Assembly (NCBI GenBank): GCA_003169235.1
Contig: PMPX01000214.1
Span: forward strand, 1-38,964
Reading direction: 5' to 3'
DNA: 38,964 nt
DNA from: Acidimicrobiaceae bacterium
Lineage (GTDB): Bacteria; Actinomycetota; Acidimicrobiia; Acidimicrobiales; RAAP-2
Each line of letters starts with the position of its first letter. Position 1 is the first letter of the stretch. The notes under the pieces are model-generated. The model was not told the DNA's origin and did no database searches. It saw only the letters and a list, made by a program, of their open reading frames with translations. Shown in pieces: positions 5,946 through 25,967 of the stretch. The position numbers and the translations under genes are program-made.

Positions 5946-6212
5946 GAAGGCGTCACCATGTCGTCGCGCTGGGGCAGAGGTCGGGCGCGGTCGTCGTCGC
6001 GGTGGGAGGAGGTGGGTGAAGGTGCAAGGCCAGCGGCGAGGCTAGCGCGGGTCGGTGACGCCGCCCGGCGCCGGTCGGGCTCGTGATCACTGCACCCTTT
6101 TCGCAACCGTCCTGCAGTCTTTTCCAGGCCTGCATTTCACCCTCCGGGAGTAAACTTGACGCTCTACCGAGAACGTTTTTCGGTGCGCGACCGGGCGTTC
6201 GGCCCAGGTCAC

Positions 6213-6227
6213 GAGACTTCTGGCTCT
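6213..6227 (+). promoter_or_regulatory. DosR-like operator candidate GAGACTTCTGGCTCT
   Basis: Matches RRGASTWYYGGCYCT shared by four sites; ends 54 nt upstream of the GTG at 6282. 13/15 identical to the site upstream of the WS/DGAT genes. Confidence 0.5.
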
Positions 6228-6281
6228 GGTTCAGACGGGACCGTTCCGATAACAGTGAAAAGTCGGATCGGAGGGGGAACT

Positions 6282-6947
6282 GTGAAGAAGGCGAAGGGAC
6301 AACGTGGTGGCGAGACCGCCGGCACCGACCGGGTCCCCGCCGACGCCGCCGGACCGGCCGCCGCGGAGTCGTCGCGGGGCGGGTCGGCGAGGACCGTGGA
6401 GTCGATGCTGGAGGAGTTCGGCGCGGTCGGGGACGGAGTGCCGGGACGGCGTGCGCCGGGCACGGGCAAGTACGACCAGCTCTGGCAGCTCTCCATGGCC
6501 GACCCGCACACGGGACTGGCGAACCAGCTCCTGCTGCTCGACCGCCTCACCCAGGCCCTGACGCGCCGCCGGCGCCACGGCGGCGAAGTGGTGGTCTGCC
6601 ATATCGGCCTGGACAACCTGGCGGAGATCAACGTGGACCTGGGGTACACCACGGGCAACGCCGTCCTGTGCGAGGCGTCCCGCCGCCTGGTGTCGATCCT
6701 GCGCAGCGAGGACACGGTGGGCCGGGTGGGCTCGAGCGAGCTCGTGGTCGTGCTCACCGTCAGCGACGAGCAGGCGGTCGGGCCGCTCATGCGCCGGATA
6801 CAGCACACGCTCGACGAGCCGGTCATCGTGGGCGTGAGCGACATTCGCGTCCATTCCTCGCTGGGCGTCGCGATCGCAGAGGACACCGAGTCCGCCGAGG
6901 ACGTGCTGGCGCGAGCGGATCGCTCGACGCGCGTCGCCAAGCGCTGA
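6282..6947 (+). CDS. Degenerate GGDEF-domain protein
   Basis: GTG start after ribosome-binding-like GGAGGGGG. DPHTGLANQLLLLDRLTQAL (DxLTGLxN-like), LGYTTGNAVLCEASRRL, then GRVGSSELVVVL where RxGGDEF is expected. Confidence 0.85.
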   Translation: MKKAKGQRGGETAGTDRVPADAAGPAAAESSRGGSARTVESMLEEFGAVGDGVPGRRAPGTGKYDQLWQLSMADPHTGLANQLLLLDRLTQALTRRRRHGGEVVVCHIGLDNLAEINVDLGYTTGNAVLCEASRRLVSILRSEDTVGRVGSSELVVVLTVSDEQAVGPLMRRIQHTLDEPVIVGVSDIRVHSSLGVAIAEDTESAEDVLARADRSTRVAKR

Positions 6948-8284: not shown

Positions 8285-9442
8285 GTGCAGCCGTTCGACC
8301 GTATCGACGATCCCGTCAAGCTTCGCCGGCTCGTGCAGGCGATCCTCATCCTCGATGCCGAGCTGCACCTGCCGGCGGTGCTCCGCCGGATCATTGAGGA
8401 GGCAGTCGACCTCGTCGACGCGCAGTACGGCGCACTGGGCGTCCTGACCGAGGACGGGCGGGCGCTGGACCAGTTCCTCACGGTGGGACTGACCAGCGAG
8501 GAAGAGCAGGCCATCGGTCCCCGCCCCACCGGGCGCGGTGTCCTCGGGACGTTGATTGCGGACGACAAGCCCCTCCGCCTGGCCAACATCGCCGACAGCC
8601 CGGACAGCTTCGGCATCCCGGCTCACCACCCGACCATGAGCTCGTTCCTCGGTGTCCCGGTCCGGGTGCACGGCGAGGTCTACGGGAACCTGTACCTGAC
8701 CAACAAGACGACGGCGCAGGAGTTCTCCGAAGACGACGAGGAGCTGGTGCTCGCCCTGGCGATGGCGGCCGGCATCGCCATTGAGAACGCGCGCCTCCAC
8801 GGCCTCGTGCGTGATCGCGCGCTGACCGAGGACCGCGACCGCATTGCCCGCGACCTCCATGACTCGGTCATCCAACGGCTGTTCGCCATCGGGCTCTCTC
8901 TGCAGGGCACGGCTCGCCTGGTCGAGAGGCCGGAGGCGGTCATGCGCATCGGGGAGGCCATCGACAAGCTCGACGAGACCATCCGCCAACTCCGTAAGGC
9001 CATCTTCGACATTGAGCTCACCATCAACAAAGAGGGACTGCATCCCAAGGTCCTCGACCTCGTGCACGAGCTCCGCTCGGTGCTGGGCCTCCACCCGCAG
9101 GTCTCGTTCAGCGGCCCGGTCGACAAGGTCGTCACCGGTCAGCTTTCCGAAGAGGTGCTCGCAGTGCTCCGGGAGGCGCTCACCAATGTGGGCAAGCACG
9201 CGCACGCGAACCAGGTGGTCGTCACGATTGCCGCCGGCGAGGAGCTGCGGCTCGTCGTGGCCGACGACGGAGACGGCATGGGCGACGCCGGTTCCACGGG
9301 CCGCGGCCTGAAGAACCTCCGGCAGCGTGCCGAGCGTCTGGGCGGCAGCGTGGAGCTCGGCATCTCCCGCGAGGGCGGCACCCGATTGACGTGGCACGTG
9401 CCGATCGCTCCGTTGGAGACCGAAGCGAACCTGGCCGTCTGA
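8285..9442 (+). CDS. GAF-domain sensor histidine kinase, DevS/DosS-like
   Basis: GAF region ...GIPAHHPTMSSFLGVPVRVHGEVYGNLYLTNKT...; H-box RIARDLHDSVIQRLFAIGLSLQG; ATPase LREALTNVGKHAHA, VVADDGDGMGD, GRGLKNLRQRAERLGG. Divergent from the response regulator; GTG start. Confidence 0.95.
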   Translation: MQPFDRIDDPVKLRRLVQAILILDAELHLPAVLRRIIEEAVDLVDAQYGALGVLTEDGRALDQFLTVGLTSEEEQAIGPRPTGRGVLGTLIADDKPLRLANIADSPDSFGIPAHHPTMSSFLGVPVRVHGEVYGNLYLTNKTTAQEFSEDDEELVLALAMAAGIAIENARLHGLVRDRALTEDRDRIARDLHDSVIQRLFAIGLSLQGTARLVERPEAVMRIGEAIDKLDETIRQLRKAIFDIELTINKEGLHPKVLDLVHELRSVLGLHPQVSFSGPVDKVVTGQLSEEVLAVLREALTNVGKHAHANQVVVTIAAGEELRLVVADDGDGMGDAGSTGRGLKNLRQRAERLGGSVELGISREGGTRLTWHVPIAPLETEANLAV

Positions 9443-9487: not shown

Positions 9488-9543
9488 GGCCGGTAGTCCG
9501 AATGCACCTTGTACTGCAACGCCCGTCGGTTCATCCTTGCAAG

Positions 9544-9621
9544 TGAACGAAAAGGCAAACCTCCCGTGAGGGGGGGACGCAAAGCTACGGGACTCATGGA
9601 GTTCGCCGGGCCGCCGATTCA
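9544..9621 (+). ncRNA. Cyclic-di-GMP-I (GEMM-I) riboswitch aptamer
   Basis: TGAACG AAAAGGCAAA CCTCCC-GTGA-GGGGGG GACGCAAAGCTACGGG ACTC..GAGTT CGCCGGGCCGCCGATTCA: GNRA-capped stem, GACGCAAAGC core, GCCGGG..CCGA 3' element, closing TGAACG/CG(A)TTCA stem. Confidence 0.93.
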
Positions 9622-9639
9622 GCAATAAGCACGCTGCTT

Positions 9640-9682
9640 GTCGCCCCACGGCCCGACCTCTTCGGTCCGTCAGGGGGGAGAC
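9640..9682 (+). promoter_or_regulatory. Putative RBS-sequestering hairpin (riboswitch expression platform)
   Basis: GTC..CCCC ACG..GACC-tcttc-GGTC CGT..GGGG..GAC; pairs the GGGGGG Shine-Dalgarno tract just before ATG 9684. Confidence 0.55.
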
Positions 9683-9683
9683 A

Positions 9684-11402
9684 ATGCAGAAGACCCGCAG
9701 TCGTCGGGCACTGACGGTCCTCATTGTTCGAGGCATCGCCCTGATTGGCCTTCTTTGCGCGCTGGGTACGGGCCTGGCCGTCGAATCCTCCACCGGTGCG
9801 GGCGCCGTGGTGCGCACGGCCGGCTACGGCGGCGGCCAGATGATGACTGCCGACCCCAACGGCGGCTACTGGACGGACAGCGCCTCGGGAACGGTCACAC
9901 CGTACGGAGGGGCTCCTTCACTGGGTTCCCCGGCACTGTCGGGGCTCACATTGAGCAAGCCCATCGTCGGCATGGCCTCCACGCCCGGCGGCAACGGCTA
10001 CTGGCTCGTCGCCTCCGACGGCGGCATCTTCAGCTTCGGCGACGCGGGCTACTTCGGCTCGACGGGCGCCCTTCACCTCAATCAGCCCATCGCCGGCATG
10101 GCACCGACTCCCGACGGCAAGGGCTACTGGCTCGTGGCCGCCGACGGTGGCATCTTCACCTTCGGTGACGCCGGCTACTACGGCTCGACGGGCGGCACCG
10201 GCGTGACCGCTCTCGGCATGGTCATCGACCCGGCCAACGGTGGCTACTTCATCGTGGAGTCGAACGGATCGGCGGTCTTCTTCGGGCCTGCCACGACCAC
10301 CACACCTCCGGCGCCCGCCATCACCACGACCACCACACCTCCCGCGCCCGCCATCACCAAGACCACGACACCTCCGGCGCCTGCCGTCACGACGACGACC
10401 GCCCCGCCACCGCCGCCGACCTCGACCACCTCGACGACCACGACGACCAGCACGACGCGGCCGACCACCACCACGACCGTGACGTCGACCACGCCGCCGG
10501 CGACCACTCTGGTACAGGGTGCCTACGTCTCCGGCGGGACCCCGTCGGCCATGGCGTCGTTCGCCTCGGCCACCGAGACCTCGCCCACCCTCGCCACCGC
10601 CTACCTGCCGGGGAATGCCGGATGGACGGGCATGGACGGCACCGGGGGGAGCCTCAACTGGCTGCTTGGACCCTGGGAGGGAAGCCACTACGCACTGTCG
10701 TTGGGCGTGCCGATCGTCCCGACCAACTCGAGCGGCACCGCGGTCGCCACGCTGGCCACGGGCGCCACGGGGGCCTACAACTCCTACTACGTCACCCTGG
10801 CGCAGACGTTGGTCAGCGCCGGTGAGTCGAACGCCTACCTGCGTCTCGGCTGGGAGTTCGACGGAACCTGGATGCCCTGGCAGGCCACGACGGCCAGTGC
10901 CGAGGCCAGCTACGCCTCGTACTTCCAACAGATCGTGTCGGCCATGCGGTCCGTGCCCGGTGCGGCCTTCCGCTTCGTGTGGAACCCCGATGCCGGAGCC
11001 TTCACCGAGTCGGGATACTCGGTGGCGGCGGCCTACCCCGGGAACGCCTATGTCGACGTGATCGGGCTCGACGCCTACGACCAGACCTGGGCCACGCCGC
11101 AGACACCGGCGAACGCCTGGACCGCGACCACGCTGCCCTCGCTGACCGCGGCGCAGCAGTTCGCAACCTCACACGGCAAGCCACTCGCCTTCACCGAATG
11201 GGGTCTCTCCATCCGCAGCGACGGCCACGGCCTCGGTGACGACCCGTACTACATCAACCACATGGCCTCGTGGATGGAGACCGCCTCCAACGACGTGGCG
11301 TTCGAGAGCTACTTCGACTGCAACGCCGGCGGGGTCAACTCCTTCATCACCGGGGGATCCTTCCCGAACAGCCTGGCTGCCTTCAGCGCAGACCTGGGCT
11401 GA
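9684..11402 (+). CDS. Secreted protein: N-terminal beta-propeller-like repeats, Thr/Pro linker, C-terminal GH26-like glycoside hydrolase domain
   Basis: Signal-like N-terminus; repeats GYWLVASDGGIFSFGDAGYFGSTG / GYWLVAADGGIFTFGDAGYYGSTG; (TTTPPAPAxTx) linker; LRLGWEFDGTWMPW, FRFVWNPDAG, YVDVIGLDAYD, PLAFTEWGL (GH26-like catalytic Glu contexts). Confidence 0.85.
   Translation: MQKTRSRRALTVLIVRGIALIGLLCALGTGLAVESSTGAGAVVRTAGYGGGQMMTADPNGGYWTDSASGTVTPYGGAPSLGSPALSGLTLSKPIVGMASTPGGNGYWLVASDGGIFSFGDAGYFGSTGALHLNQPIAGMAPTPDGKGYWLVAADGGIFTFGDAGYYGSTGGTGVTALGMVIDPANGGYFIVESNGSAVFFGPATTTTPPAPAITTTTTPPAPAITKTTTPPAPAVTTTTAPPPPPTSTTSTTTTTSTTRPTTTTTVTSTTPPATTLVQGAYVSGGTPSAMASFASATETSPTLATAYLPGNAGWTGMDGTGGSLNWLLGPWEGSHYALSLGVPIVPTNSSGTAVATLATGATGAYNSYYVTLAQTLVSAGESNAYLRLGWEFDGTWMPWQATTASAEASYASYFQQIVSAMRSVPGAAFRFVWNPDAGAFTESGYSVAAAYPGNAYVDVIGLDAYDQTWATPQTPANAWTATTLPSLTAAQQFATSHGKPLAFTEWGLSIRSDGHGLGDDPYYINHMASWMETASNDVAFESYFDCNAGGVNSFITGGSFPNSLAAFSADLG
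10296..10394 (+). repeat. Three 33-bp tandem repeats encoding TTTPPAPA(I/V)T(T/K)
   Basis: 10296-10328, 10329-10361, 10362-10394; in-frame linker. Confidence 0.85.
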
Positions 11403-11420: not shown

Positions 11421-13271
11421 TTACCAACTGACGGTGTGGGGCGTGTCGTCCTCGAATGTCGTGTCGCCGACGTGCCACGTGACGGGTGGGATGCGCGCGC
11501 TGGGCATGACGGTCAGCGTGCCCTGCGACTGGGGGAGCACGAAATTGAACGTGACGCTCTGCGTCGCTCCGGCGGGGATGTCGACGGACACCCCGACCAA
11601 CAGGGTCGGGCCCTCTGGGCCGTTGGTCACGACGGAGTGTGCCGACGGCGACGAGACGTGGCGGACGTCCCCAGGGAGATTGACGGTGGCGATGCCGACG
11701 TACTCGCCGTAGTGCGTGCCGAGGCCCGGGTAGGGACCGGCGATGTAGGGCGACTGGCCCGGCGGGGTGTGGTTGGCGAGCGTCATGGTCAGGCGGCCGT
11801 CCGTCTGCGCGCCTCGCGGCGTCAGCTGCAGTGAGGTGGTCACCGAGAGGTACTGGTCGAGCTTGTTGCCGCCGCGATTGATCACGTTGGCCACGAGAGA
11901 GCTCGGCTGGAGCTCGCCCGACACCCCCACGGCGCGCCAGATGGCCTCCGTCCGGGGGTTGGCGGACCAGATGAGCACGTGACGTCCCGACGAGGCCGCC
12001 GAGAGTGCGTTGACCATCGCGTGCAGACCGAACGGCCGGTCCTCGAGCGCGTGCAGCGTCGCGGAAGCGAGGGTGGACAGCTCGTCGAGCCGGTTCGCCG
12101 CACTGGAGGAGTAGTCCTCCCCGACGTACTGGTCGTGCAGCAACAACTGGTCGACGTTGTCGGCCGTGACGACCGAGCCGGTCGAGGTGGTCACGGGCCC
12201 GGTCACGGTGAGGAGCTCCTGAAGGCCCTGGACGTCGATCGCCATGACGCCGTCCACGCTCTGGCCCGTGTTGGCCTTCCACATGCTGGCGGCCAACGGG
12301 CCGGTGACGTCGAACTGCGGCGTGAGCCCGAGGTTGCGCCAGTCGACGCCGGGAAGGAGCCACCCCCACCGTGCCTCGAGGTCGCCGCCGACCGTGACGG
12401 CGCCTTGCGGGAGCGTCAGTGACGGCGTCGGGACCATGTCGGAGAGATGGAGCTCGCCGTCGCCCGTGGTCACGATCCCGGCCTCGAGGAACGCACCTGA
12501 GCCCGAGCGCATCTCGGCGTTGTTCCCGGCGAGGAGGAGGTAGGTCCCGGGCCCCTGGAGGATGGAGGCCGCCGCGGCGCCGGCCGCCGACGTGCGCGCC
12601 AGGGTCGTCCGCACCTGGGTGAGGTCGTTGAGGAAGGTGCTGCGCTCGTGCGCCAGCGGCCCGATGAGGCCCTGATCCGGCCCCAGGTCGACTCCGGCCA
12701 GGGCGAGGTGGGTGCTGGCGGCGAGCGCCGCGAGCTGCCGCAGCGCGGTGACCCGGTCGGGTCCAGCCGTGTGGGGGAGGCGGAGCAGCGACCGGGACTG
12801 GCCGACCGCCGTGATGCCCGTCCGGGCGACCTGCTCGGCCGCCCCCGACAGGTCCTGCACCGAGCGCAACTGGCGCCCGGCCACCGGGAGCACGTCCACC
12901 GGCCAGAGAAGGGGGGACGAAAGGAGGCCGTGCGCGGCGCCGAAGCTGGAGGCCGCCGAGTGGAGGGGCCCGATGGGGGCGCCGGACAGGACCCCGTCAG
13001 CGGAGAGGCCCTGACGGGCCGACTGGACAGCCGCCTGGCCCTGGTGGATGTGCTCGGCGGCCACGACCACATCGACGACGACGGCGACCGCCCAGATCAC
13101 CACGAGCGCCACCACGACCGCGGCGACCTTCCACCGCGTGGAGCGGCGACGGGTCAGTGCGCCGCTCGGTCCGGAGTCCGTCGGCGGGTCGGCCTCGGCG
13201 CTCGGATCGCCCGGCTCGCCGTCGTTCACCGGGGGGATCGTACTGCTGGGGTTGCCGGAGCCGGCGGGCAC
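11421..13271 (-). CDS. DUF4012-type membrane-anchored protein
   Basis: Single N-terminal TM (WKVAAVVVALVVIWAVAVVVDVVVAAEHI); GTYLLLAGNNAEMRSGSGAFLEAGIVTTGDGELHLSDM...; NRGGNKLDQYLSVTTSLQLTP. Confidence 0.8.
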   Translation of the reverse strand: MPAGSGNPSSTIPPVNDGEPGDPSAEADPPTDSGPSGALTRRRSTRWKVAAVVVALVVIWAVAVVVDVVVAAEHIHQGQAAVQSARQGLSADGVLSGAPIGPLHSAASSFGAAHGLLSSPLLWPVDVLPVAGRQLRSVQDLSGAAEQVARTGITAVGQSRSLLRLPHTAGPDRVTALRQLAALAASTHLALAGVDLGPDQGLIGPLAHERSTFLNDLTQVRTTLARTSAAGAAAASILQGPGTYLLLAGNNAEMRSGSGAFLEAGIVTTGDGELHLSDMVPTPSLTLPQGAVTVGGDLEARWGWLLPGVDWRNLGLTPQFDVTGPLAASMWKANTGQSVDGVMAIDVQGLQELLTVTGPVTTSTGSVVTADNVDQLLLHDQYVGEDYSSSAANRLDELSTLASATLHALEDRPFGLHAMVNALSAASSGRHVLIWSANPRTEAIWRAVGVSGELQPSSLVANVINRGGNKLDQYLSVTTSLQLTPRGAQTDGRLTMTLANHTPPGQSPYIAGPYPGLGTHYGEYVGIATVNLPGDVRHVSSPSAHSVVTNGPEGPTLLVGVSVDIPAGATQSVTFNFVLPQSQGTLTVMPSARIPPVTWHVGDTTFEDDTPHTVSW

Positions 13272-13868: not shown

Positions 13869-15269
13869 ATGTCGTCGGTGACGATTGGAAGAGATCTGCA
13901 GCACTGGCAGTGGACACGTGAGTCGGAATCGGCTGCGGGTGCCCGCCGCCGGTTTGCCGCCCACACCAGTGGAGAGGCCGTCGCGGGCATGGACCTCCTG
14001 GTCCTGGCGCTTGCCGTGGTGATCTTCGCGCCCAGTGTGCTCCAGTGGTCGGTCGCGGTCTTCGTGCTGGGGGTGCTGGCTCTCTGCGCGCTGCGCGGCC
14101 AGTACGCACCTCGGATCACCCTGAGTGTGAGCAGGGATCTGGGCTCACTGGCACTGGCGGTCACCGTGCCGCTCATGGTGATCGCGACGTTGGACGACTT
14201 CGACCCGCGGGTCCGGCCGTTCGTCGTGGTGGCCGTCGCCTCGTTCTGCCTGCTGGTGCTCGGCCGGGCCGTCGCCTACGCCGGCATCCGGCGCGCCAGG
14301 ACGAAGGGCGCCTTCGCCCAGAGGGTTCTCATCGTGGGAGCTGGGCAGGTGGCGGAGCGCTTCGCAGATGTCCTCGAGACGCACCCGAGCTACGGGTTGC
14401 ACCCGGTCGGGCTGCTCGACGACTGCGCCGACGAGTCCCTGTCGCACCCGGTGCTGGGCGGGATCGATCAGCTCGACGACGTCCTGAGCAAGCACCGCAT
14501 CGACCGGGTCGTGCTCGCGTTCGGCGTCAACCGCGACCCGGATCTGGTGCGGGTCATCCGATCCTGTGAGAACGCGGACGTGGACATGTACGTCGTCCCG
14601 CGTTTCTTCGAGTTGGGCCTGCAGGCCGCGGCGCGCGACGTCGACATGGTCTGGGGCTACCCCCTCGTCCGTCTGCGGCGGTCGACGATGCAGTCGTCGT
14701 CCCGCTGGCTCAAGCGGGCCTTCGACTCGGCCGTCTCCGCCTCGCTCCTCCTGATCGCCGCGCCGATCTTCGGAGTGCTCGCGCTGGGCGTGAAACTCAC
14801 CAGCCCCGGTCCGGTCTACTTCCGCCAGCGCCGCATCGGGAAGAAGGGGCGCGAGGTGGAGATCCTCAAGTTCCGCTCCATGCGGGTGAACAGCGAGTCG
14901 GACACCCAGTGGAGCGTGAACGACGACGCGCGCGTCACGAAGCTCGGGGCATTCATGCGCAAGACGTCGCTCGACGAGCTGCCGCAGCTCTGGAACGTGC
15001 TGCGGGGCGACATGTCGCTCGTCGGCCCCAGGCCGGAGCGCCCCTACTTCGTGGAGAGGTTCGAGAGAGAAGTCCCCGGATACGGCGATCGGCACCGCGT
15101 CCCGGTCGGGCTGACCGGCCTGTCCCAGGTCAACGGGCTCCGGGGCGACACGTCCATTGAGGACAGGGCCTGGTTCGACAACCACTACATCGAGAATTGG
15201 TCGGTTGGCGGAGACCTGGCCATCCTGGCGCGGACGGCCGGCGCCATGATCAAGCAGGTCAGGGACTAA
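13869..15269 (+). CDS. Exopolysaccharide polyprenyl glycosylphosphotransferase (initiating sugar transferase)
   Basis: Multi-TM N-terminus, CoA-binding-like VLIVGAGQVAERFADVLE, then KRAFDSAVSASLLLIAAPIFGVLALGVKLTSPGPVYFRQRRIGKKGREVEILKFRSM...TSLDELPQLWNVLRGDMSLVGPRPERPYFV. Confidence 0.95.
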   Translation: MSSVTIGRDLQHWQWTRESESAAGARRRFAAHTSGEAVAGMDLLVLALAVVIFAPSVLQWSVAVFVLGVLALCALRGQYAPRITLSVSRDLGSLALAVTVPLMVIATLDDFDPRVRPFVVVAVASFCLLVLGRAVAYAGIRRARTKGAFAQRVLIVGAGQVAERFADVLETHPSYGLHPVGLLDDCADESLSHPVLGGIDQLDDVLSKHRIDRVVLAFGVNRDPDLVRVIRSCENADVDMYVVPRFFELGLQAAARDVDMVWGYPLVRLRRSTMQSSSRWLKRAFDSAVSASLLLIAAPIFGVLALGVKLTSPGPVYFRQRRIGKKGREVEILKFRSMRVNSESDTQWSVNDDARVTKLGAFMRKTSLDELPQLWNVLRGDMSLVGPRPERPYFVERFEREVPGYGDRHRVPVGLTGLSQVNGLRGDTSIEDRAWFDNHYIENWSVGGDLAILARTAGAMIKQVRD

Positions 15270-15325
15270 GCGCAGGAGACGTTGAATTCCCACAGAGGGG
15301 GTGGCGAGCGCAGCGTCGCGCTCGC

Positions 15326-16885
15326 GTGGTGACGACGGGCTTGGTGGCCTCCGTCCCCTCGGTGCCGGCGGAGCCGGTCTCTGAGGAGAGAGTCGAGACG
15401 CGGCGCTGGCGCCTCGCCGTCGTCGCGGAGCTGGTGCTCGGGGGGATCCTCGGGTCGTTGTTCCTCGGCACCCACAGCCTCTTCCTCGACGAGTCCGTGA
15501 GTGCCAGCCTGGCCACGGCACCCTGGCACCGTTTCGTCAACGTCGTGAGCCACCGCGAGGCGAACATGGTGCTCTACTACGTGCTGTTGCGCGGGTGGGT
15601 CGTGCTGGGTCACAGCGAGATCGCACTCCGGAGCCTGTCCGTGGTCCTCGCCGTCGGCGCGTTGTGGGTGGTGATCCTGCTGGCGCGCTCGCTGTTCGGC
15701 CGTCGCGTGGCGCTCCTCGCCGGGCTGCTGCTCGCAGTGAACCCGCTGTACGTCCAGTTCGCGCAGGACGTCCGGGGGTACTCCCTGGCGCTCCTCCTGG
15801 TCTCCGCGTCCTGCCTCCTCTTCGTCCGGGGCATCCGGCAGGTCGATCCGCCTCCCCGGCTGTGCTGGACGGCCTACACCCTCGTTACCGCGCTGGCCGC
15901 CTACAGCAACTTCTGGGCGGCGTTGGTCCCCGTCGCGCAGGCGTTGTCCCTGGCGTTCTTGCCGTCGGGACGCATCCCGTGGCGCCGGGTGCTGCCGTCG
16001 GCTGCCGCACTGGTCGTGCTGCTGGTGCCGCTGGGGCTGCTGATCCAGTCCACCGACAGTGCCGGCGTCAACTGGGCCGCGGGGTCCTCGGCCGGGCATC
16101 TGTTCACGCACATCCGGGCGACGGTCCCGCACGCCGTGCTCGACGTGCTGGTACTGGCGGCGGCGGTCTTCGTCGTGGCGGTGATCTTCCTGGCGCGCCG
16201 GCGCCCGGGCGTGACCGGCGTGTTCGCCCGCCACTGGCCGCTCCTGTTCACGGCGTGCTGGCTGGTCGTGCCGGTCGCCGCCGTGATCCTTCTCTCCCTG
16301 GTGGACAAGCCGCTGCTCGTGGTGCGCTACCTGATGGTCAGTCTTCCGCCGGCGATCCTTCTCGTGGCGCTGGCGATCGACCGCATCGCCTCGCTCACCC
16401 GCCGCGGCGCCACCGCCGTCGCGGCGGTGCTGCTGGTGCTGGCCGTCGGCCTGTCGGCTGTCGGTGTCGCGCAGTGGTATTCCCTGGGCGGGCCCCAGGA
16501 CTTCCGCTCGACCGTCGCGTACATCGCCGCCCGGGCGCAGCCGGGGGACGGCGTGCTCATCTTCGCCCCCTACGAGCGGGTGCCCGTCGAGTGGTACCTG
16601 GTCGGGCGGCCGGTCACCGAGCGCGAGGTGCACCCCGTCTACCCGACGACGGCGTGGGGTGTGGACCCGCTGTACTTCGACGGGAACGTGCCGTTCAGCG
16701 CGAGCGCGGTCGAGCAGGCGGCATCGGGGTACCAGCGGCTCTGGCTCGTGAGCGTGACGGCGGACCAGTCCCTGTACCCGGCTCAGGCGGCGGCGGTGGA
16801 CGCGGCCCTGCGACGGGCCGGGTTCACGCCGGCCGGCACCCGGACCTTCCGTGGTGTGGACGTCACCGAAGAGGTGCGGGGGTGA
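15326..16885 (+). CDS. GT39/ArnT-like multi-TM glycosyltransferase
   Basis: LFLDESVSASLATAPWHRFVNVVSHREANMVLYYVLLRGWVVLG, many TM helices; GTG start inferred. Confidence 0.85.
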   Translation: MVTTGLVASVPSVPAEPVSEERVETRRWRLAVVAELVLGGILGSLFLGTHSLFLDESVSASLATAPWHRFVNVVSHREANMVLYYVLLRGWVVLGHSEIALRSLSVVLAVGALWVVILLARSLFGRRVALLAGLLLAVNPLYVQFAQDVRGYSLALLLVSASCLLFVRGIRQVDPPPRLCWTAYTLVTALAAYSNFWAALVPVAQALSLAFLPSGRIPWRRVLPSAAALVVLLVPLGLLIQSTDSAGVNWAAGSSAGHLFTHIRATVPHAVLDVLVLAAAVFVVAVIFLARRRPGVTGVFARHWPLLFTACWLVVPVAAVILLSLVDKPLLVVRYLMVSLPPAILLVALAIDRIASLTRRGATAVAAVLLVLAVGLSAVGVAQWYSLGGPQDFRSTVAYIAARAQPGDGVLIFAPYERVPVEWYLVGRPVTEREVHPVYPTTAWGVDPLYFDGNVPFSASAVEQAASGYQRLWLVSVTADQSLYPAQAAAVDAALRRAGFTPAGTRTFRGVDVTEEVRG

Positions 16886-18069
16886 GCCGGCCGCGCCTCG
16901 GAACGAGCGCGGCGGTGGGCGCACTGGTCGCCGGCGCCACCGCCGGCCATGTCCTCTATCCGGCGTGGTTGGCGTGGCGCACCCGCGGCGGCCGCGGCCG
17001 GGTCGCACCCGCGACGGCACCCCCGGCACCCGGCGCATGGCCGGACCTCACCGTCCTGGTGCCGGCCTACCGGGAGGCCGGTGTGATCGCCGACAAGTTG
17101 GACGACCTCCGGGCGAACGGCTATCCGGGCCGCCTCCGGATCCTCGTGATCGCCGACGGGGATCCCGAGACCGCGGCGGCCGCGGAGCGAGCGGGCGCCC
17201 GCGCCCTGGCCTCTGAGCAGCGGCTCGGCAAGTCCCAAGCCCTCAACTGGGGCTTCGTGGAGGCCGATACCCCAATCGTGGTGATCAGCGACGCCAACAA
17301 CCGCCTTGCCCCCGGTGCCCTCGCCGCGGTGGTGGAGCACTTTGCCGATCCCGAGGTGGGTGCGGTGGCCGGCGAGAAGCTCGAAGACGACGGCGGAGGG
17401 GGCGAGAGCCTGTACTGGAGGTTCGAGTCGTGGCTGAAGCAGCGAGAGGACCGGCTGGGCACGACGATCGGCCTGGTGGGCGAGCTCTCCGCCATCCGCA
17501 CCGAGGCCTGGCGTCCCATCCCCGCCGACGTCGCCATCGACGATCTGTGGGCGGCGCTCGACATCATTGAGCAGGGCTACCGGGTCGCCTACGAACCCCG
17601 GGCCCGGGCGCTCGATCCGGCCGTGCCGTCCCTGGCCGTCCAGTGGGAGCGCCGGACGCGCAACGTCTCCGGCGCGCTGCACGTCCTCGTGCGCCGCCGC
17701 CGGCAGCTGCGGCCGTCGGCGGGTCTCGTGGCCGCCGAGCTGTGGGGGCATCGCCTGGTCCGCTTCACGGTGGGCCCCCTGTCGCATCTGGCCCTCGTGG
17801 CTCTCTCGGCCTCCAAGGTGCGTTCGAGCAGGCTGGCCCGGCTCTTCCTGTTCGCCAACCTGTGCGGCTGCGCCGGCCTGGTGGCGAGCACCCGGGCCGT
17901 CGACACCGCGGCCGGGGATGCCGCGGTCGGACCCACCCCCCGCCGCCTGCTGGCCGCCGCGGCGGCGGGGTCGGGACAGGTCATGTTCCTCCAGGCCGTC
18001 GCGCTGGGCGGCATGGCGCGCTACGCGCGTGGTGACCGGCCGACCATGTGGTCGACTGTGGAGCGATGA
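16882..18069 (+). CDS. Family 2 glycosyltransferase
   Basis: LTVLVPAYREAGVIADKLDDLRANGYPGRLRILVIADGDPETA...PIVVISDANNRLAPGAL; GTG overlaps the upstream TGA. Confidence 0.9.
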   Translation: MSRPRLGTSAAVGALVAGATAGHVLYPAWLAWRTRGGRGRVAPATAPPAPGAWPDLTVLVPAYREAGVIADKLDDLRANGYPGRLRILVIADGDPETAAAAERAGARALASEQRLGKSQALNWGFVEADTPIVVISDANNRLAPGALAAVVEHFADPEVGAVAGEKLEDDGGGGESLYWRFESWLKQREDRLGTTIGLVGELSAIRTEAWRPIPADVAIDDLWAALDIIEQGYRVAYEPRARALDPAVPSLAVQWERRTRNVSGALHVLVRRRRQLRPSAGLVAAELWGHRLVRFTVGPLSHLALVALSASKVRSSRLARLFLFANLCGCAGLVASTRAVDTAAGDAAVGPTPRRLLAAAAAGSGQVMFLQAVALGGMARYARGDRPTMWSTVER

Positions 18070-19292
18070 GTGGCAAGGCGACGCGGCCGGACCCCGGCGC
18101 ACCCGGCCGGCTGAGCGTCCTCGTCGTTTCGATCTCGCCCGAGGTGTGGGGGGCCGAACGGAGCCTGCTCGGCCTGGCGCCGCTCCTGGAGGAGCAGGGG
18201 GTCGCGCTGACGTTGGCGTCGCCACCCGGCCGCCTCTCCGAGGCGTGGTCGAGCCTGGGTCTCCCTCATGTGGAGTTCTCCGCCCCGGACCGCCTCGGAC
18301 TGCGGGCGGACGGCGGCGGACGCCCCGGCGTGCGCGCCTTGTCGAAGGAGATCGCCAGCACGGCGCGCAGCGCGCGACGCCTGGCGCAGCTGGCGCGGGG
18401 TGCGGACGTGGTCCACTCCAACAGCTTGTGGGCCCATCTGGACTGTGCCGTGGCCGGCCGGCTCGCCCGCCGGCCGGTGGTCCTGGAACTGCACGACCTC
18501 GTGCGTCCCGGGCTGGGCCGCGTCGTGCTGAGGGCGTCCGTGCGGCTGGCGTCCGGCGGCATCGCGGTCAGCCAGGCGGTCGCGGACACAGTGGGGACGG
18601 GCCTGCGTCGCCTCCGCGTCATTCCCCAGGCCGTGGACCCGGAGCGATTCCATCCCGGCCCGCCGGACGCGTCCTGGAGAGCACGGCTGAGCAGCCGACC
18701 CGACGAGCCCATCGTCGGTGTGGTCGGCCGTGTCGATCCCGAGAAGGGCATCAGGACCGTGGTGCAGGCCATGAGCATGCTCGACGGGCCGGCGCGGCGC
18801 AGCCACCTTGCCGTCGTGGGTGCCCCGGGCCTCGACGACGGCGCCTACGAGGCCCAAGTGCGAGCGGAAGCGTCAGACCTGCTCGGCGAGCGCGCCCGCT
18901 TCGTGGGCCCGGTCGACGAGGTGCCCGCCGTGTTGCGTTCGCTCGACGTGCTCGTCAACGCCTCCACGTCGGAGCCTTTCGGGTTGAGCATCCTGGAGGC
19001 ACAGGCGTCCGGCGTCCCGGTGATCGGAACCGATGCTGGCGGCATCCCCGAGTTCGTCACCGATGGCCGGACGGGGCTGCTCGTCGCGCCCGGTCGACCG
19101 GATGCCCTGGCGGCCGGCCTCGACCGCCTGCTCGGAGCGCCGGCCCTGCGCCACGAACTGGCGGCCGCGGCCCGCCACGACGTCGTGGCGCATCACACGT
19201 TGGCCGCCCGGGCGCGGGCGGTGGCCGACCTGTACCGCGAGGTGGCCCGGGCGAGGGCCACGGAAGGCGCGGGGGCGGGGGCGGCGCGGTGA
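18066..19292 (+). CDS. Family 4 glycosyltransferase
   Basis: PEVWGAERSLLGLAPLL...PIVGVVGRVDPEKGIRTVVQAM...NASTSEPFGLSILEAQASGVPVIGTDAGGIPEFVTDG; ATGA overlap. Confidence 0.93.
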   Translation: MSGKATRPDPGAPGRLSVLVVSISPEVWGAERSLLGLAPLLEEQGVALTLASPPGRLSEAWSSLGLPHVEFSAPDRLGLRADGGGRPGVRALSKEIASTARSARRLAQLARGADVVHSNSLWAHLDCAVAGRLARRPVVLELHDLVRPGLGRVVLRASVRLASGGIAVSQAVADTVGTGLRRLRVIPQAVDPERFHPGPPDASWRARLSSRPDEPIVGVVGRVDPEKGIRTVVQAMSMLDGPARRSHLAVVGAPGLDDGAYEAQVRAEASDLLGERARFVGPVDEVPAVLRSLDVLVNASTSEPFGLSILEAQASGVPVIGTDAGGIPEFVTDGRTGLLVAPGRPDALAAGLDRLLGAPALRHELAAAARHDVVAHHTLAARARAVADLYREVARARATEGAGAGAAR

Positions 19293-20431
19293 GGACCCTC
19301 ATGGTGACCAAGTTCCTGCCGTTGCCGGACAACAACGGGGGGCACCAGCGCTCCCTGGCGATCGCCCGCCGCCTCGCCGGCCTCGGCGACCTCGTGCTGT
19401 GTGGGTACGACGACGGCACCGCGGACAGGGCGGGCCTGCGCGACCTCGGGATCGACGTCCGGGCCGTCCCGTGGCGGGTGACGCCGGTGGGGGTGGCCCG
19501 TGGGATGCTGGCGACGCGCAGCCTCTCGGCGGCACGGTTCTGGAGCCCGGCGATGGTCGAGACGGTCCGCGGCGCGGCGGACGAAATGGCCGTCGACCTG
19601 TTGCAGGTCGAGTACCAGCAGATGGTGCCGTTCGTGCTCGACCTCCCGGCGAAGACATCGGTCCTCGACCTCCACAACGTCGAGTCGGCCCTCGTGGCGA
19701 GCTACGCGCGGGCCCGCCGGGGTGTGCCCGCCGCGCTGCTCCGCTCCGAGTCGGCCGCGTTGAGGCGGATGGAGCGACGCACGATCGGGGAATTCGACCA
19801 CGTGGTCGTGGTGAGCGAGGAGGAGCGGGCCAGGCTGCCCGCCGGCGCTCGCTCCGTCCTCGTCTGCCCCAACGGCCGGGAGCCGTCGGTGGTGCTCCCC
19901 GACGCGCCGGACGCGGTCGTGGCCTTCGTGGCCACCATGGGATGGGCCCCCAACGTCGATGCCGCCGTCTGGCTCGGCCGCGACATCTGGCCCCGGGTGC
20001 TGGCCCGGGTTCCCGGGGCCCAACTCCTCATCGTCGGCAAGGACCCGGCCCCGGCGGTGCGCGCCCTGGCCGGCGGGAGCGTCCAGGTGACCGGAACGGT
20101 GGACGACGTGACCCCCTACCTGGCACGGTCCCGCGTCGTCGTCGCCCCGCTGCGGGCCGGCGGAGGTACCCGGCTCAAGATCATGGAGGCGCTCGACGTC
20201 GGCCGGCCCGTCGTGGCCACCTCCGTCGGCTGCGAGGGGATGCAGGACCTGGTGGGCCGGGGCGTGGTCGTGGCGGACAGTGCCGGGGGACTGGCCGACG
20301 CCATCGCGGGGCTCCTGCTCGACCCCGCCCGGGCCTCAGCGCTCGGGCAGGCCGGCCACGACGCGGTGGTCGCCGACCACACCTGGGACGCCGCGCTGGC
20401 GCCGCTGCTCCAGGCGGTACGCCCGTGTTGA
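19289..20431 (+). CDS. Glycosyltransferase (GT4-like)
   Basis: LMVTKFLPLPDNNGGHQRSLAIARRLAGLG...VSEEERARLP...PLRAGGGTRLKIMEALDVGRPVVATSVGCEGM; GTGA overlap. Confidence 0.92.
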   Translation: MRTLMVTKFLPLPDNNGGHQRSLAIARRLAGLGDLVLCGYDDGTADRAGLRDLGIDVRAVPWRVTPVGVARGMLATRSLSAARFWSPAMVETVRGAADEMAVDLLQVEYQQMVPFVLDLPAKTSVLDLHNVESALVASYARARRGVPAALLRSESAALRRMERRTIGEFDHVVVVSEEERARLPAGARSVLVCPNGREPSVVLPDAPDAVVAFVATMGWAPNVDAAVWLGRDIWPRVLARVPGAQLLIVGKDPAPAVRALAGGSVQVTGTVDDVTPYLARSRVVVAPLRAGGGTRLKIMEALDVGRPVVATSVGCEGMQDLVGRGVVVADSAGGLADAIAGLLLDPARASALGQAGHDAVVADHTWDAALAPLLQAVRPC

Positions 20432-21870
20432 AGCTGGTGGAGGCCGTCATCGCGCTCGGACTGGCGGCCGCCGTCGTGGCGCTCTTCGTTCGTTGGGAGC
20501 GGGAGGGCAAGGAGCAGCTCGTGCCGCTCGTCCTCCTCGGGCTGTTGGTGGTGGAGGCCACGATCTACGCCGACGACAACACGCTGCCGCGCAGCATCTT
20601 CCACCCCGGATCGGGGTCGGCGCAGCTGCGACTGCCCGAGATCTACATCACGCTCGCGCTGGTGGCGCGCCTCATCGCGCGGGGGAAGCCCACGCGGATC
20701 GGCCTCCCGGCCGGCCTCTGGCTCGCCTTCGCGGCCTGGTTGGCGGTCGGCGCGGTGGAGGGGAGGCTCTATCACAACGCCCTGTCGCAGGATCTCTTCG
20801 AGGCCAAGGACATCCTGTACATCGTCGGGGCGTACGCGCTGGCCGCGGGAGTGCCGCTGCGGCGCTACTTCGACCGAGGCGACCTGTTCAAGCTCGGAAG
20901 CCTCTGCGTCGCGTGCGCGTCGCTGCTGGACGTGATGACGATCGCGCACATCGGCCTCAACACGAACCTGCCACTCCTCCCGCTGCAGAACTTCGGCCTC
21001 GACGGTTCCGGGGCGGCGGCCCTGTTCGTCGCCATCGGAACGATGTGCTTCCTCACCAGGTTGGCGTCCGGAACCGTCCGGGTACGCCATGTCGTGGCGT
21101 TGGTCCCGTTGATCGCCGCCGTCGTGTTGGCCGACCAGCGTGCCGTGCTGGTGAATCTCGGCGCGGTGGTCCTGGTGCTGCTGCTCGTGCTGCTCGTCGG
21201 GCACCGCCAGAGCGTGGGCCAGAGCCTCCACGTCAAGTCGGGCCAGGTCGTGGTGACCCTCCTGGCCGTCGTCGCGGTCGGCATCGTGGTCGTGGTCGTG
21301 CCGGCCGCGGCCGACCGTCAGCCGGCGCGGATCCCGCTCGCCTCGACCTTCGAGAACCTCTTCCACGGTGGGGCGAAGGCGGAGTCGGCTCAGGATCGCC
21401 TGAACCTGGCGTCCGAGGCGGAAGCCCTCATTCCCCAGCACCTGGTCATCGGATGGGGCCTCGGGGTGGAGCTGCAGTACTACGAAACCGGGTCCCGCTC
21501 GGTGAAGACCATCGCGTACGCCCACAACATCGTGCTGGACCTGTGGCTCCGGGTCGGCCTCATCGGCCTGCTGCTCTTCGTCTTCGCGCTGTGGGCTTCG
21601 GTCGCCGATGGGCTCAAGGTGTGGCGACGACATACGGACCCGGTGACCGCCGCCCTGGCCCTGGCTCTGGTGGCCGTGCTGGCGGGACTCCTGGCCACGG
21701 CGTTCATTGAGCCCCTTCTCGACGAGTACCGGCTTGCCACCCTGTTCGGTGTCAGCATCGGCATGCTGCGGGCCACGGTCACGTCCATGGACATGACGAG
21801 CCGATTGCCGACCTGGCGGGGCGAGGTGAACCGCTTGCGGCCCGCGGCGGGGGGTGTCCCGTGGACCTAG
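20425..21870 (+). CDS. O-antigen ligase/polymerase-like membrane protein (Wzy candidate)
   Basis: ~10+ hydrophobic segments; VIGWGLGVELQYYETGSRSVKTIAYAHNIVLDLWLRVGLIGLLLFVFALW typical of Wzy/WaaL. Confidence 0.85.
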   Translation: MLKLVEAVIALGLAAAVVALFVRWEREGKEQLVPLVLLGLLVVEATIYADDNTLPRSIFHPGSGSAQLRLPEIYITLALVARLIARGKPTRIGLPAGLWLAFAAWLAVGAVEGRLYHNALSQDLFEAKDILYIVGAYALAAGVPLRRYFDRGDLFKLGSLCVACASLLDVMTIAHIGLNTNLPLLPLQNFGLDGSGAAALFVAIGTMCFLTRLASGTVRVRHVVALVPLIAAVVLADQRAVLVNLGAVVLVLLLVLLVGHRQSVGQSLHVKSGQVVVTLLAVVAVGIVVVVVPAAADRQPARIPLASTFENLFHGGAKAESAQDRLNLASEAEALIPQHLVIGWGLGVELQYYETGSRSVKTIAYAHNIVLDLWLRVGLIGLLLFVFALWASVADGLKVWRRHTDPVTAALALALVAVLAGLLATAFIEPLLDEYRLATLFGVSIGMLRATVTSMDMTSRLPTWRGEVNRLRPAAGGVPWT

Positions 21871-23003
21871 CGATCGGGATCCACTCCATGGCCCCCGCCG
21901 GGGGGACGGAGCTGAACGTGTTCCAGGTCTCGCGCGGGTTGGCGCAGCGCGGCCATGCCATCGACCTGATCGCGGCGCGGGACGGCAGCCTGGCCGACGA
22001 GTACCGGACCTTCTGCCGGAGTGTGACCAGGCGTCCGGTCTTCGACTTCGCCCGCTCGACGGCCCTGCGCGACCTGGTGCGCATGGCACCGGCCGTGGTC
22101 GCGGCCGCCAGGAAGAAGCCCGACGTCGTCTACCCCAATCGGTTCGCCGAGATCGTATGGGCGGTGGCGGCGGGCCGGCTGTCGGGGGCACCCGTCGTCT
22201 GTCACCTCCACGAGATCCGTCATGCCCGACCGGGGTCGTTCCCCAATGAGCACGTGCGCCGGTTCATCGCCGTCTCCGAGTTCCTCAAAGGCCAGTGGGT
22301 GGAGATCGGGCTCAACCCGGATCTCATCGACGTGGTCCACAACGGGGTGTCGTCCGACCAGTACCCCGCCGGCGGGAAGGAGGAGCGGGCCAGCGCCCGT
22401 GCCCGTCTCGGACTTCCCCAGGAGGGGTTCATCGCCCTGTACTTCGGGCGCCTCGACCCGGAGAAGGGGATCGACGTACTGCTCGACGCCTGGCGGAGGC
22501 TCGGCCTGGGCGGCGAAGAGGGGCGGCTCCTGCTCGTCGGCTCACCGAGCACCCACCTCCGGGACGGGAACCGGTACGTCGAGGGTCTCCAGGCGAACGC
22601 CCCGCCGGGGTGCATCTGGCTGCCGTCGCAGGCGGACGTGGTGCCCCCGTTGCACGCCGCGGACGTGGTGGTCCTCCCGACCATCTGCGACGAGGGCTTC
22701 CCGCGGGTGATCGTCGAGGCGATGGCCACCGGCCGCCCGGCCCTCGCCTCCCGGATCGGCGGGATCCCCGAGCTCCTCACGGGGGAGTTCGAGCGGTTCC
22801 TGATGGAGCCCGGCGATGCGGGGATGATCGCCTCCGCCCTGGACAGCCTCGTAGGCTGGCAGCAGCGGGAGCCTGAGCTGGCCGGCCGCTGCAGCGCTCA
22901 TATTCGGGATCACTTCTCACTCGACCGGCTGGTGGAAGGTGTGGAGCGGTCGCTCACCGCGGCCGCCGGAGAGGTGCAAGGAGAGGGATCGGCGTGGATC
23001 TGA
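21861..23003 (+). CDS. Family 4 glycosyltransferase
   Basis: IHSMAPAGGTELNVFQVSRGLAQRGH...YFGRLDPEKGIDVLLDAWRRL...TICDEGFPRVIVEAMATGRPALASRIGGIPELL. Confidence 0.93.
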   Translation: MDLAIGIHSMAPAGGTELNVFQVSRGLAQRGHAIDLIAARDGSLADEYRTFCRSVTRRPVFDFARSTALRDLVRMAPAVVAAARKKPDVVYPNRFAEIVWAVAAGRLSGAPVVCHLHEIRHARPGSFPNEHVRRFIAVSEFLKGQWVEIGLNPDLIDVVHNGVSSDQYPAGGKEERASARARLGLPQEGFIALYFGRLDPEKGIDVLLDAWRRLGLGGEEGRLLLVGSPSTHLRDGNRYVEGLQANAPPGCIWLPSQADVVPPLHAADVVVLPTICDEGFPRVIVEAMATGRPALASRIGGIPELLTGEFERFLMEPGDAGMIASALDSLVGWQQREPELAGRCSAHIRDHFSLDRLVEGVERSLTAAAGEVQGEGSAWI

Positions 23004-24349
23004 GGCAGATCGTGCGCACCGTGCGCGCCAACTGGGTCGTGGCTCTGGTCACCTTCCTCGTGTGCGTGGGCATCGGCGCAGCCTTCGCCGTGCTGCCTGC
23101 GAAGCAGTACCAGGCCTCGGTCGTGCTCCTGGCGCAGCCTCCGCCGGGTGCCTCCGACCCGGGCTCGGACGTGGGTGCGATCCAGATCGAGGTCCCCCAG
23201 ATCGTGGTGGAAGCGACCAACGCGGGCGTGGCCGACCAGGCGCGCGCGCTCGTGCCCGCCCGCTACCGGTCCGAGCCCGTGAAACTGTCGGCAACCGGTG
23301 ATCCCGGCTCCAACTCGGTGACCATCGTCGCCACCAGCAGCGACCCGGCCGTCGCCCAGGCCTATGCCAACGCCCTGGCGGCCAAGGTGCTGCAGCTCAC
23401 GAACCGCGAGGCGACGACGACCCTCGTCCTGTCGGAACTGGGTCCGGCTCAGCTCCCGACCACACCGACGAATCCCCGCAAGACCATCGTCGTGGCGTCC
23501 ATCGCCCTCGGTCTGATCCTGGCCGTGTTCGCCGCCCTGGAGGCGGCCTCCCTGCGCCGTCGTTTCGTGACCGCCGACGAGATCCGCGAGCGGGTCGGGC
23601 TGACCGTCCTGGGCGAGGTGCCGTTGCTGATCCACGCCGGCGGAGGCCCTGCCGAGATCTTCGAATCCACCGAGGACCAGCGCGCCCTCGAGGCGTTCCA
23701 GCAGCTTCGCAGCTCGCTCCACCTCCTGTTCCAGGAGACGAGCCCCACCATCGCGGTGACCTCCTGGGATGCTCGTGAGGGCAAGTCGTCCGTCGCGTCC
23801 CACGTGGCGTGGGCGCTGGCGATGCCGGGTCGCTCCGTCGTGGCGGTCGACTGCGACCTGCGCAAGCCCACGCTCCACGAGATCTTCGGGGTGGCCCTCT
23901 CGCCCGGCGTGAGCGACTACTTCGCCGCGGCCGGCCCGGACGAGCTCATGGCCCCCACGGGCAACCGCTACCTCGATCTGATCCCGGCCGGCGTGCCGGG
24001 ACGGCACCCGACGGACATCGTGACGGCCGACGTGCCCCGGCTCCTGGCCGCCCTCCACGAGTCGGACCGGACGATCATCGTCGACTGCCCGCCACTGTCG
24101 GGCGTGGCCGAGACCAGGATCCTGGTGGCCAAGGCGGACGCCGTGGTGCTCGTGGTCGACGCCCGGAAGTTCGACCCCGAGCATCTCGAGCAGAGCCTGG
24201 TGCAGCTGCGAGCCTCCGGTGCCAACGTGGCGGGCATCGTGCTGAACCGCGTGCGACGCCGGAAGGTCGACGAGAGCTACGGCTACTACGGGTCGACCTC
24301 CGAGCAGGAGGCCAGCACGTGGCGCCGCTGGCTCGCCCGATCCGGCTAG
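22994..24349 (+). CDS. Fused Wzz chain-length determinant / bacterial tyrosine kinase (Wzc/CapAB-like)
   Basis: MDLRQIVRTVRANWVVALVTFLVCVGIGAAFAVL; SWDAREGKSSVASHVAWALA (Walker A), VVAVDCDLRKPTLHEIFG (A'), TIIVDCPPLSG (B), C-terminal ESYGYYGST. Confidence 0.92.
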   Translation: MDLRQIVRTVRANWVVALVTFLVCVGIGAAFAVLPAKQYQASVVLLAQPPPGASDPGSDVGAIQIEVPQIVVEATNAGVADQARALVPARYRSEPVKLSATGDPGSNSVTIVATSSDPAVAQAYANALAAKVLQLTNREATTTLVLSELGPAQLPTTPTNPRKTIVVASIALGLILAVFAALEAASLRRRFVTADEIRERVGLTVLGEVPLLIHAGGGPAEIFESTEDQRALEAFQQLRSSLHLLFQETSPTIAVTSWDAREGKSSVASHVAWALAMPGRSVVAVDCDLRKPTLHEIFGVALSPGVSDYFAAAGPDELMAPTGNRYLDLIPAGVPGRHPTDIVTADVPRLLAALHESDRTIIVDCPPLSGVAETRILVAKADAVVLVVDARKFDPEHLEQSLVQLRASGANVAGIVLNRVRRRKVDESYGYYGSTSEQEASTWRRWLARSG

Positions 24350-24353
24350 GGAC

Positions 24354-25967
24354 GTGCTGAGCGAGCCAGAGTTCCCGCCCGGCGACAGGGCCGGGAACAG
24401 CCGGCCCAAGAAGGCGAGCCTCCGCCGCAACGTGACCACCAACTACGCCGTGGTCGTCGTGCTCGTGGTGGTCGGGTTCGTCACCACGCCGATCCTCACC
24501 CACCAGCTCGGCATCCTCCGTTACGGAGTGTGGGCGCTCATCGGCTCGCTCATCCCGTTCCTCGAGCTCTTGGAACTGGGGTTCGCCAGCGCCACGGTGG
24601 CCTTCGTCAGCCGGCACCTCGAGCTCGAGGACGACGAGAAGGTCGCGGCGACGCTCAACACCTCGTTCCTGTGCCTGTCGGCGCTCGGGGTCCTCGCCTT
24701 CGCGGGCGTCGTGGTGTTCGCGATCTTCCTTCCCGACCTCATCACCAGCATCCCCAAGAGCCTGGTGGGCCAGGCCCAGTTCCTCCTCCTGCTCCTCGCA
24801 TTCGACATGGCGATCTCCATCCCGATGGACACGTACGGGGGCGCGCTGTGCGCCCTGCAGCGATTCGACCTCCTGAACTACAGCCTGATCGCGGTCATGG
24901 TGGCGCAGGCCCTCGGCTGGGTCGTCGTCCTGTGGCTCCACGGTGGGCTCATCGCGCTCGGTGCTGTCACGGTCGCGATCAGCCTGGCGGGCCAGGCCTC
25001 GCGCGGCGTGATGGTGCACCGCCTCCTGCCGTGGTTCCATCTGTCCCTGCGACGGTTCGACCGCAGCCTCCTGCGCACGTTCACCGCAGCGTCGGGCCGG
25101 TACTCGGTGCTCCAGGTCGCGGACGCGGTGATCGCGCTCTCCGACGTCCTGATCGTCGGCGCCGCCGCGGGGGTGCGCGCCGCCGCCATTTACGCAGTCG
25201 CACAGCGGCTGGGCCTGCTTCCGGCCCGGATCGTCCAACCGCGGACGACGCTCTTGTTCTCGAAGGCGGGGCAGCTGGCAGCACGGGACAACCGGTCGGG
25301 TCTGCGGGACAGCACCGACGAGGTCGTGCGCTACGTGCAGTACCTCGCCATCCCCGCCGCGATTGCGTTGGGGTTCCTGGCCGGGCCGACCATCGAGGCA
25401 TGGGTGGGGCCCCTGTACCGCGAGGCGGCCACGGTGATCGGCTTGCTGTGCCTCGCGGCCGTCGTGCAGGTCTGGGCGCTGACGCTCCGCAACGTGCTCA
25501 GCGGCTCGGGCCGTCCGACGCTCGCCGCCGTGCTCTACAGCATCGAGGCGGTGTTGCACGTCTCCCTCGGCATCGCGCTGGCTTCCCGTTACGGAGCGAC
25601 CGGCATGGCCGAGGCCGTGCTGATCAGCGTCGTGGTGATGGAGGGGATGCTCATGCTGCCCCTGGCGTACCGTCGCATTGAGGACTCGTTCGCGCGCCGG
25701 GCGCGCCGCGCCGTGCGCACCCTGGGCCTGCCGGCGCTCGTCACGGGCGCTCTCGCCTGGGTCCTCGGGCGCGGCGCGGGCCCGCTCTTCGCCTTTACCG
25801 ACTCGCATGGCCGCCTGCTCGGCCTGACCGCGGTCGCCGCCGCCGCGGTCGCGCTCCTCGCCGTGTTCTACGCGCTCCTCCTGGTGTGCCTGCCGTCCGA
25901 TCAGCGGCAACGGCTCGTCGCCCGCTCCCGCAGCTCGTTGGGCCGGTTCACCGCACGGGCCCACTAG
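24354..25967 (+). CDS. Polysaccharide flippase/export protein (Wzx/MATE-like)
   Basis: LRRNVTTNYAVVVVLVVVGFVTTPILTHQLGILRYGVWALIGSLIPFLELLELGFASATVAFVSRHL; about 12-14 TM segments. Confidence 0.92.
   Translation: MLSEPEFPPGDRAGNSRPKKASLRRNVTTNYAVVVVLVVVGFVTTPILTHQLGILRYGVWALIGSLIPFLELLELGFASATVAFVSRHLELEDDEKVAATLNTSFLCLSALGVLAFAGVVVFAIFLPDLITSIPKSLVGQAQFLLLLLAFDMAISIPMDTYGGALCALQRFDLLNYSLIAVMVAQALGWVVVLWLHGGLIALGAVTVAISLAGQASRGVMVHRLLPWFHLSLRRFDRSLLRTFTAASGRYSVLQVADAVIALSDVLIVGAAAGVRAAAIYAVAQRLGLLPARIVQPRTTLLFSKAGQLAARDNRSGLRDSTDEVVRYVQYLAIPAAIALGFLAGPTIEAWVGPLYREAATVIGLLCLAAVVQVWALTLRNVLSGSGRPTLAAVLYSIEAVLHVSLGIALASRYGATGMAEAVLISVVVMEGMLMLPLAYRRIEDSFARRARRAVRTLGLPALVTGALAWVLGRGAGPLFAFTDSHGRLLGLTAVAAAAVALLAVFYALLLVCLPSDQRQRLVARSRSSLGRFTARAH

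Follow-up and report, generated by a model that had tools for sequence, protein, structure and literature searches.

Among the closest described relatives of the leader analyzed here are Vc1 and Vc2 of Vibrio cholerae (RF01051), with which it shares a three-helix aptamer and the bases G20, A47, and C92, the ligand contacts named for Vc2 (PMC4744006). Vc1, which precedes gbpA, also resembles it in lying in the leader of secreted or surface-protein genes; how Vc1 and Vc2 act on the genes behind them has been described as unclear (PMC4744006). Judged from its sequence, our leader, located in a 38,964-nucleotide stretch of DNA (the window; Table 1), joins a sensor of this known class to a translational expression platform for which comparison with relatives supports two alternative folds. 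We propose that it is a c-di-GMP-I riboswitch that probably turns translation OFF, the decision being made during transcription. Our search of the open-access literature found no paper that joins c-di-GMP riboswitches with the presumed lineage.

Table 1. Features of the leader, the regulated gene, and their surroundings (positions in the window).
Feature	Position	Strand	Basis or remark
GGDEF (diguanylate cyclase) gene, context only	6156–6947	+	PF00990, E 2.5e-27; ~2.6 kb upstream
GAF histidine kinase	8285–9442		Near the regulated gene
Extended P1, 5′ arm (UUGC 9537–9540, UGAACG 9544–9549)	9537–9549	+	Sequence
c-di-GMP-I-type aptamer	9545–9619	+	RF03167 and RF01051 scores; residue mapping from the RF03167 alignment
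Aptamer 3′ strand CGGGCCG, shared arm (inside the aptamer or the anti-sequestor)	9607–9613	+	Exact complement of 9649–9655
Extended P1, 3′ arm (CG, A bulge, UUCA, GCAA)	9615–9625	+	Sequence
Anti-sequestor inner helix, 5′ arm AUAAGC	9625–9630	+	AUAAGC/GCUUGU here, AUGAGC/GCUCAU in the paralogue (L007)
Sequestor 5′ strand CUGCUUGUC-G-CCCC-ACGG	9634–9651	+	Minimum-energy fold; own-linker pairing test
Anti-sequestor inner helix, 3′ arm GCUUGU	9636–9641	+	Overlaps the sequestor 5′ arm; genus-level inner-helix covariation
Anti-sequestor outer helix, 3′ arm CGGCCCG	9649–9655	+	Shared in part with the upper stem of the sequestor; its counterpart in relatives is GCGGYCC
Shine-Dalgarno (SD) tract GGGGGG	9673–9678	+	Sequence; 5 nt 5′ of the AUG
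Sequestor 3′ arm GACAA-U-GCAG, including the start codon (9684–9686)	9680–9689	+	Fold
Regulated gene, 572 aa	9684–11402	+	Signal peptide, three GYW repeats (61–177), Thr/Pro linker, GH26-fold domain with E391 and E505
Exopolysaccharide locus, context only	13869–25967	+	Initiating sugar transferase, PMT_2, glycosyltransferases, Wzy_C, Wzz/tyrosine-kinase-like, flippase-like

In a covariance-model scan, the sole match in the whole window is to RF03167 (c-di-GMP-I-GGC), at 9545–9619 on the plus strand with 62.3 bits (E 1.5e-12; gathering cut-off 59); RF01051 (c-di-GMP-I) likewise matches the aptamer with 60.1 bits, well over its gathering cut-off of 35. In the RF03167 alignment, G20, A47, and C92 correspond to 9554, 9581, and 9614, and all three are canonical. 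Because residue 47 is G in the RF03167 consensus and A (A9581) in the aptamer, membership in RF03167, the best-scoring Rfam model, was rejected and we file the sequence as an ordinary c-di-GMP-I aptamer; the name ‘GGC’ presumably refers to positions 20, 47, and 92. The aptamer is therefore assigned to the c-di-GMP-I riboswitch class and is predicted to bind c-di-GMP. The original prediction of a c-di-GMP-I (GEMM-I) aptamer is thus borne out by a significant covariance-model match with the contact bases kept, with a small shift of coordinates: the aptamer spans 9545–9619 with a P1 that can be extended to 9537–9549/9615–9625, and the sequestor spans approximately 9634–9689 instead of 9640–9682. 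Outside the genus, family members show covariation of the extended P1 (z −4.0); within the genus covariation is absent (z −0.9, not significant), and we dropped the extended P1 as a switching helix in the genus.

The gene downstream of the leader encodes a protein with a signal peptide (identified by eye) and a domain that scores 38.4 bits against PF02156 (cut-off 20.2; E 1.2e-9); its matches to mannanases have E 5e-10. E391 and E505 align to E175 and E282 of the Cellulomonas enzyme (2x2y/2bvt), which we take to be the pair of catalytic acid/base and nucleophile, and both glutamates (E119/E233 in domain numbering) are invariant in eight relatives. For a structure model of moderate confidence (pLDDT 65, pTM 0.73), the best Foldseek match is a GH26 lichenase (E 4e-12). 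By family score and catalytic glutamate pair, the 572-aa protein is a predicted member of GH26, in agreement with the secreted GH26-like target that had been proposed.

The minimum-energy fold buries the SD tract and also the start codon, that is, 9634–9642 (CUGCUUGUC) pairs with 9680–9689; this is at odds with the possibility, raised with the original prediction, of an RBS that is never paired in structure predictions. This sequestor is the static ground state whether or not the aptamer is constrained. Single-sequence burial was nevertheless dropped as evidence: 88% of dinucleotide-shuffled linkers pair the window's SD at least as well (0.88), and SD pairing over 58 leaders is the same as with dinucleotide-shuffled linkers (median fraction 0.52); G-rich SDs in C-rich leaders pair anyway. 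We also asked whether each SD/start region pairs better with the linker of its own leader than with linkers taken from relatives, after correction for row and column effects; in the comparative tests the starts were chosen by SD score and the sequences are related, and this relatedness should make the own-vs-swapped test conservative. The own linker pairs the SD/start region better both in the genus (n = 24; z −5.1 for −17 to +3 and −5.8 for −9 to +11) and in the rest of the family (n = 32; z −2.1 and −2.6), and the signal is absent in control regions from +7 onward and 5′ of the aptamer. The comparison indicates that, at the level of the family, pairing between the SD/start region and the leader exceeds chance. 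Thus, of the SD-burying stem put forward originally, the minimum-energy fold and the family-level pairing stand, but the single-sequence fold is at the level of chance.

What would make the leader a switch is an anti-sequestor, a structure absent from the earlier reading, in which the linker pairs with the 3′ strand of the aptamer; it can coexist with neither the aptamer nor the sequestor. In the own-vs-swapped test, the last 14 nt of the aptamer plus 8 favor their own linker (p 0.0008 in the genus, 0.0012 in the others), and the other aptamer segments give null results; the last 12 nt also pair better with the linker than with shuffled linkers (t −4.1 and −3.1). Many leaders in the genus share two alternatives: GGGCCGC..GAAAUAGC with GCUAUUUU..GCGGYCC, which places the anti-SD in an internal loop, and UUUCCC with GGGGAAA. 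When 22 leaders are simply aligned with MAFFT, 83.6% of the anti-sequestor pairs are standard, compared with 39–55% for slid controls; the inner helix has 13 double-change cells vs 4.3 when shuffled (0/500; slid controls ≤5). The register of the window's inner helix differs from the genus consensus.

The calculated energies, which leave out ligand and tertiary contacts, depend on whether the SD has been transcribed. Before it is, the anti-sequestor in the window is favored over the ligand-free aptamer by 5.8 kcal/mol, and the mean of the same gap is −2.9 in the genus (n = 22) and −3.0 in the others (n = 28), compared with +1.1 and +3.0, respectively, for shuffled linkers (Wilcoxon 7e-5 and 3e-5); with the SD in place, the preference is inverted, to +4.2 in the window. 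Taken individually, the anti-sequestor of the window does not reach significance (20% of shuffles do equally well), and in the two modeled states the opening of its SD is approximately equal (0.44 vs 0.46) and only that of its AUG differs (0.37 vs 0.68). At the family level, the comparisons argue that mutually exclusive pairing links the aptamer and the sequestor; together, the SD/start pairing and the anti-sequestor tests support the translational mode proposed at the outset.

In the mechanism that we propose, the aptamer 3′ strand (9607–9613) would, without ligand, pair with CGGCCCG (9649–9655) and AUAAGC (9625–9630) with GCUUGU (9636–9641); this long anti-sequestor hairpin would hold the anti-SD segment (9642–9648) in an internal loop, leaving the SD and AUG free. 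With c-di-GMP bound, the aptamer would retain its own 3′ strand, the anti-sequestor would be unable to form, and 9634–9651 would pair with the SD and start codon; low c-di-GMP would permit synthesis of the secreted GH26-fold enzyme and high c-di-GMP would stop it. That the anti-sequestor is favored before the SD is made, with the order reversed once the SD is present, is the pattern expected of a switch that is decided co-transcriptionally; because, in the full-length RNA, the fold with aptamer and sequestor is the more stable even without ligand, the OFF logic needs co-transcriptional kinetics. We infer the OFF polarity, the kinetic control, and the physiological role. A scan for sigma-70-like promoters found none just upstream.

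The ground-state fold could also be read with the opposite sign: the sequestor forms irrespective of constraints on the aptamer, which would also be seen for a default-off switch, and c-di-GMP riboswitches of either sign are known (PMC4744006). Translation would then be turned ON, either because the ligand-bound aptamer and extended P1 destabilize the SD stem or because the SD stem is the default block. We consider this unlikely: the sole competing pairing that the comparisons back draws on the 3′ strand of the aptamer itself, so formation of the aptamer makes the linker available to the SD rather than drawing it off. Transcription control, with intrinsic or Rho-dependent termination as the output and SD pairing as a by-product, would accord with the frequent use of terminators by c-di-GMP-I riboswitches (PMC11218506), and Rho sites could likewise become exposed if the leader is blocked. 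It seems quite improbable here, because the covarying feature is the SD/start pairing and no U-tract follows the linker hairpin; no intrinsic terminator was found in the leader, and the only terminator-like site lies within the coding sequence (9700–9718), a chance-level count.

The top score of RF03167 could be taken to mean that the aptamer is a ligand-altered variant (c-di-GMP-I-GGC) that senses another dinucleotide. To this we give very little credence: residue 47 is A in the window and in at least 76 of the 78 relatives (it is G in one, L053, and one is divergent), G20 and C92 are canonical in the window, and diguanylate cyclases are abundant in the genome, the genes of which give 14 GGDEF matches (13 above the cut-off, some partial). 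The translational OFF switch remains our preferred reading.

A survey of the family found approximately 78 copies of the aptamer in 39 of 173 genomes, with 18 in one genome; class-wide the aptamer is sparser (36 of 396 sampled genomes). Start codons in the relatives are typically 56–78 nt 3′ of the aptamer and have a good SD. Judged by eye, class-level relatives do not share the family-specific platform, and several have short leaders without it; in the g13 leaders, neither c-di-AMP (ydaO) nor any other second riboswitch has an Rfam match. The genome of the window has a second aptamer (C219, 65.9 bits) 5′ of a paralogous gene, the GH26 domain of which is 76% identical to that of the window gene; its third GH26 gene (C100) is without an aptamer. 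The proteins encoded behind the aptamers commonly have signal peptides (by eye) and are mostly secreted (glycosidases and beta-helix proteins). Pfam matches among 49 of these include GH26 (8), beta-helix (8), TIG, GH16, GH5, CBM5/12, ECF sigma factor, EAL, and HD, and BLAST identifies 10 GH26-like genes behind aptamers beyond the window's own (three are cut at contig ends). We see an even chance that these leaders form a lineage-wide c-di-GMP OFF regulon, with up to 18 copies per genome, that restrains secreted glycosidases and other surface proteins by one conserved kinetic design; in this design, the aptamer 3′ strand and the linker would form the anti-sequestor before the SD is made, and ligand would decide within that interval.

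Several other aptamers have distinctive features. Seven (L100, L101, L102, L104, L105, L106, and L075) have U (or A-U) at the position of C92 and keep G20 and A47; because C92 contacts the ligand, their specificity may differ. Six of the seven precede one type of gene, that is, a 10–12-codon leader ORF followed by a protein of ~950 aa with a PilV-like prepilin start. In one genus, 10 aptamers (L047, L049, L064, L065, L071, L072, L080, L081, L084, and L091) lead an ORF of ~40 codons (MGE...), the end of which falls at an inverted repeat, near-perfect GGCGGAGCCCCC/GGGGGCTCCGCC, probably with a convergent gene beyond; the aptamer and ORF would form a riboswitch-led short transcript. The sole G47 aptamer, a true GGC-type (L053:301–375), is 5′ of an ECF sigma factor gene. 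Three aptamers that share a genus are located ahead of genes for an ISAzo13-family transposase (L074), a PAS/HD-type signaling protein (L107), and an EAL-type protein (L108), with the domains provisionally assigned to these members; the last two could provide c-di-GMP feedback.

In the window, the exopolysaccharide gene set lies 3′ of the GH26 gene, in line with the adjoining locus that had been described. A DUF4012 protein (11421–13271, minus strand), convergent with the GH26 gene, is encoded at the edge of the exopolysaccharide locus. Upstream, the GGDEF domain encoded at 6156–6947 is closed by a TGA at position 156 of the 161-position profile and may be complete or truncated. In this context, the GH26-fold enzyme may fairly be assigned a matrix-trimming role. 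If the proposal is true, matrix-degrading or adhesive secreted enzymes would be under direct second-messenger control beside exopolysaccharide genes. Dozens of natural variants with compensating changes back both folds, so the wiring from c-di-GMP to the start codon is directly testable.

Compared with known systems, the layout of the aptamer aligns with c-di-GMP-I-GGC (RF03167) over all 80 positions, but the residue-47 consensus differs. In Vc1, no anti-SD or terminator is apparent (PMC4744006), whereas both the sequestor and the anti-sequestor described here have comparative support. Bc1 of Bacillus thuringiensis also has a long expression platform, and in the presence of c-di-GMP SHAPE data put both its RBS and its AUG in a stem-loop (PMC11218506); however, its control depends on two terminators and c-di-GMP has almost no effect on it in vivo (PMC11218506), and no terminator is seen in our leader. 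The regulated protein resembles the GH26 beta-mannanases and lichenases (CfMan26A, 2bvt; CtLic26, 2vi0) in its fold match and two catalytic glutamates; it differs from them in its identity (~18–20% over the structural match) and in adding N-terminal GYW repeats and a Thr/Pro linker.
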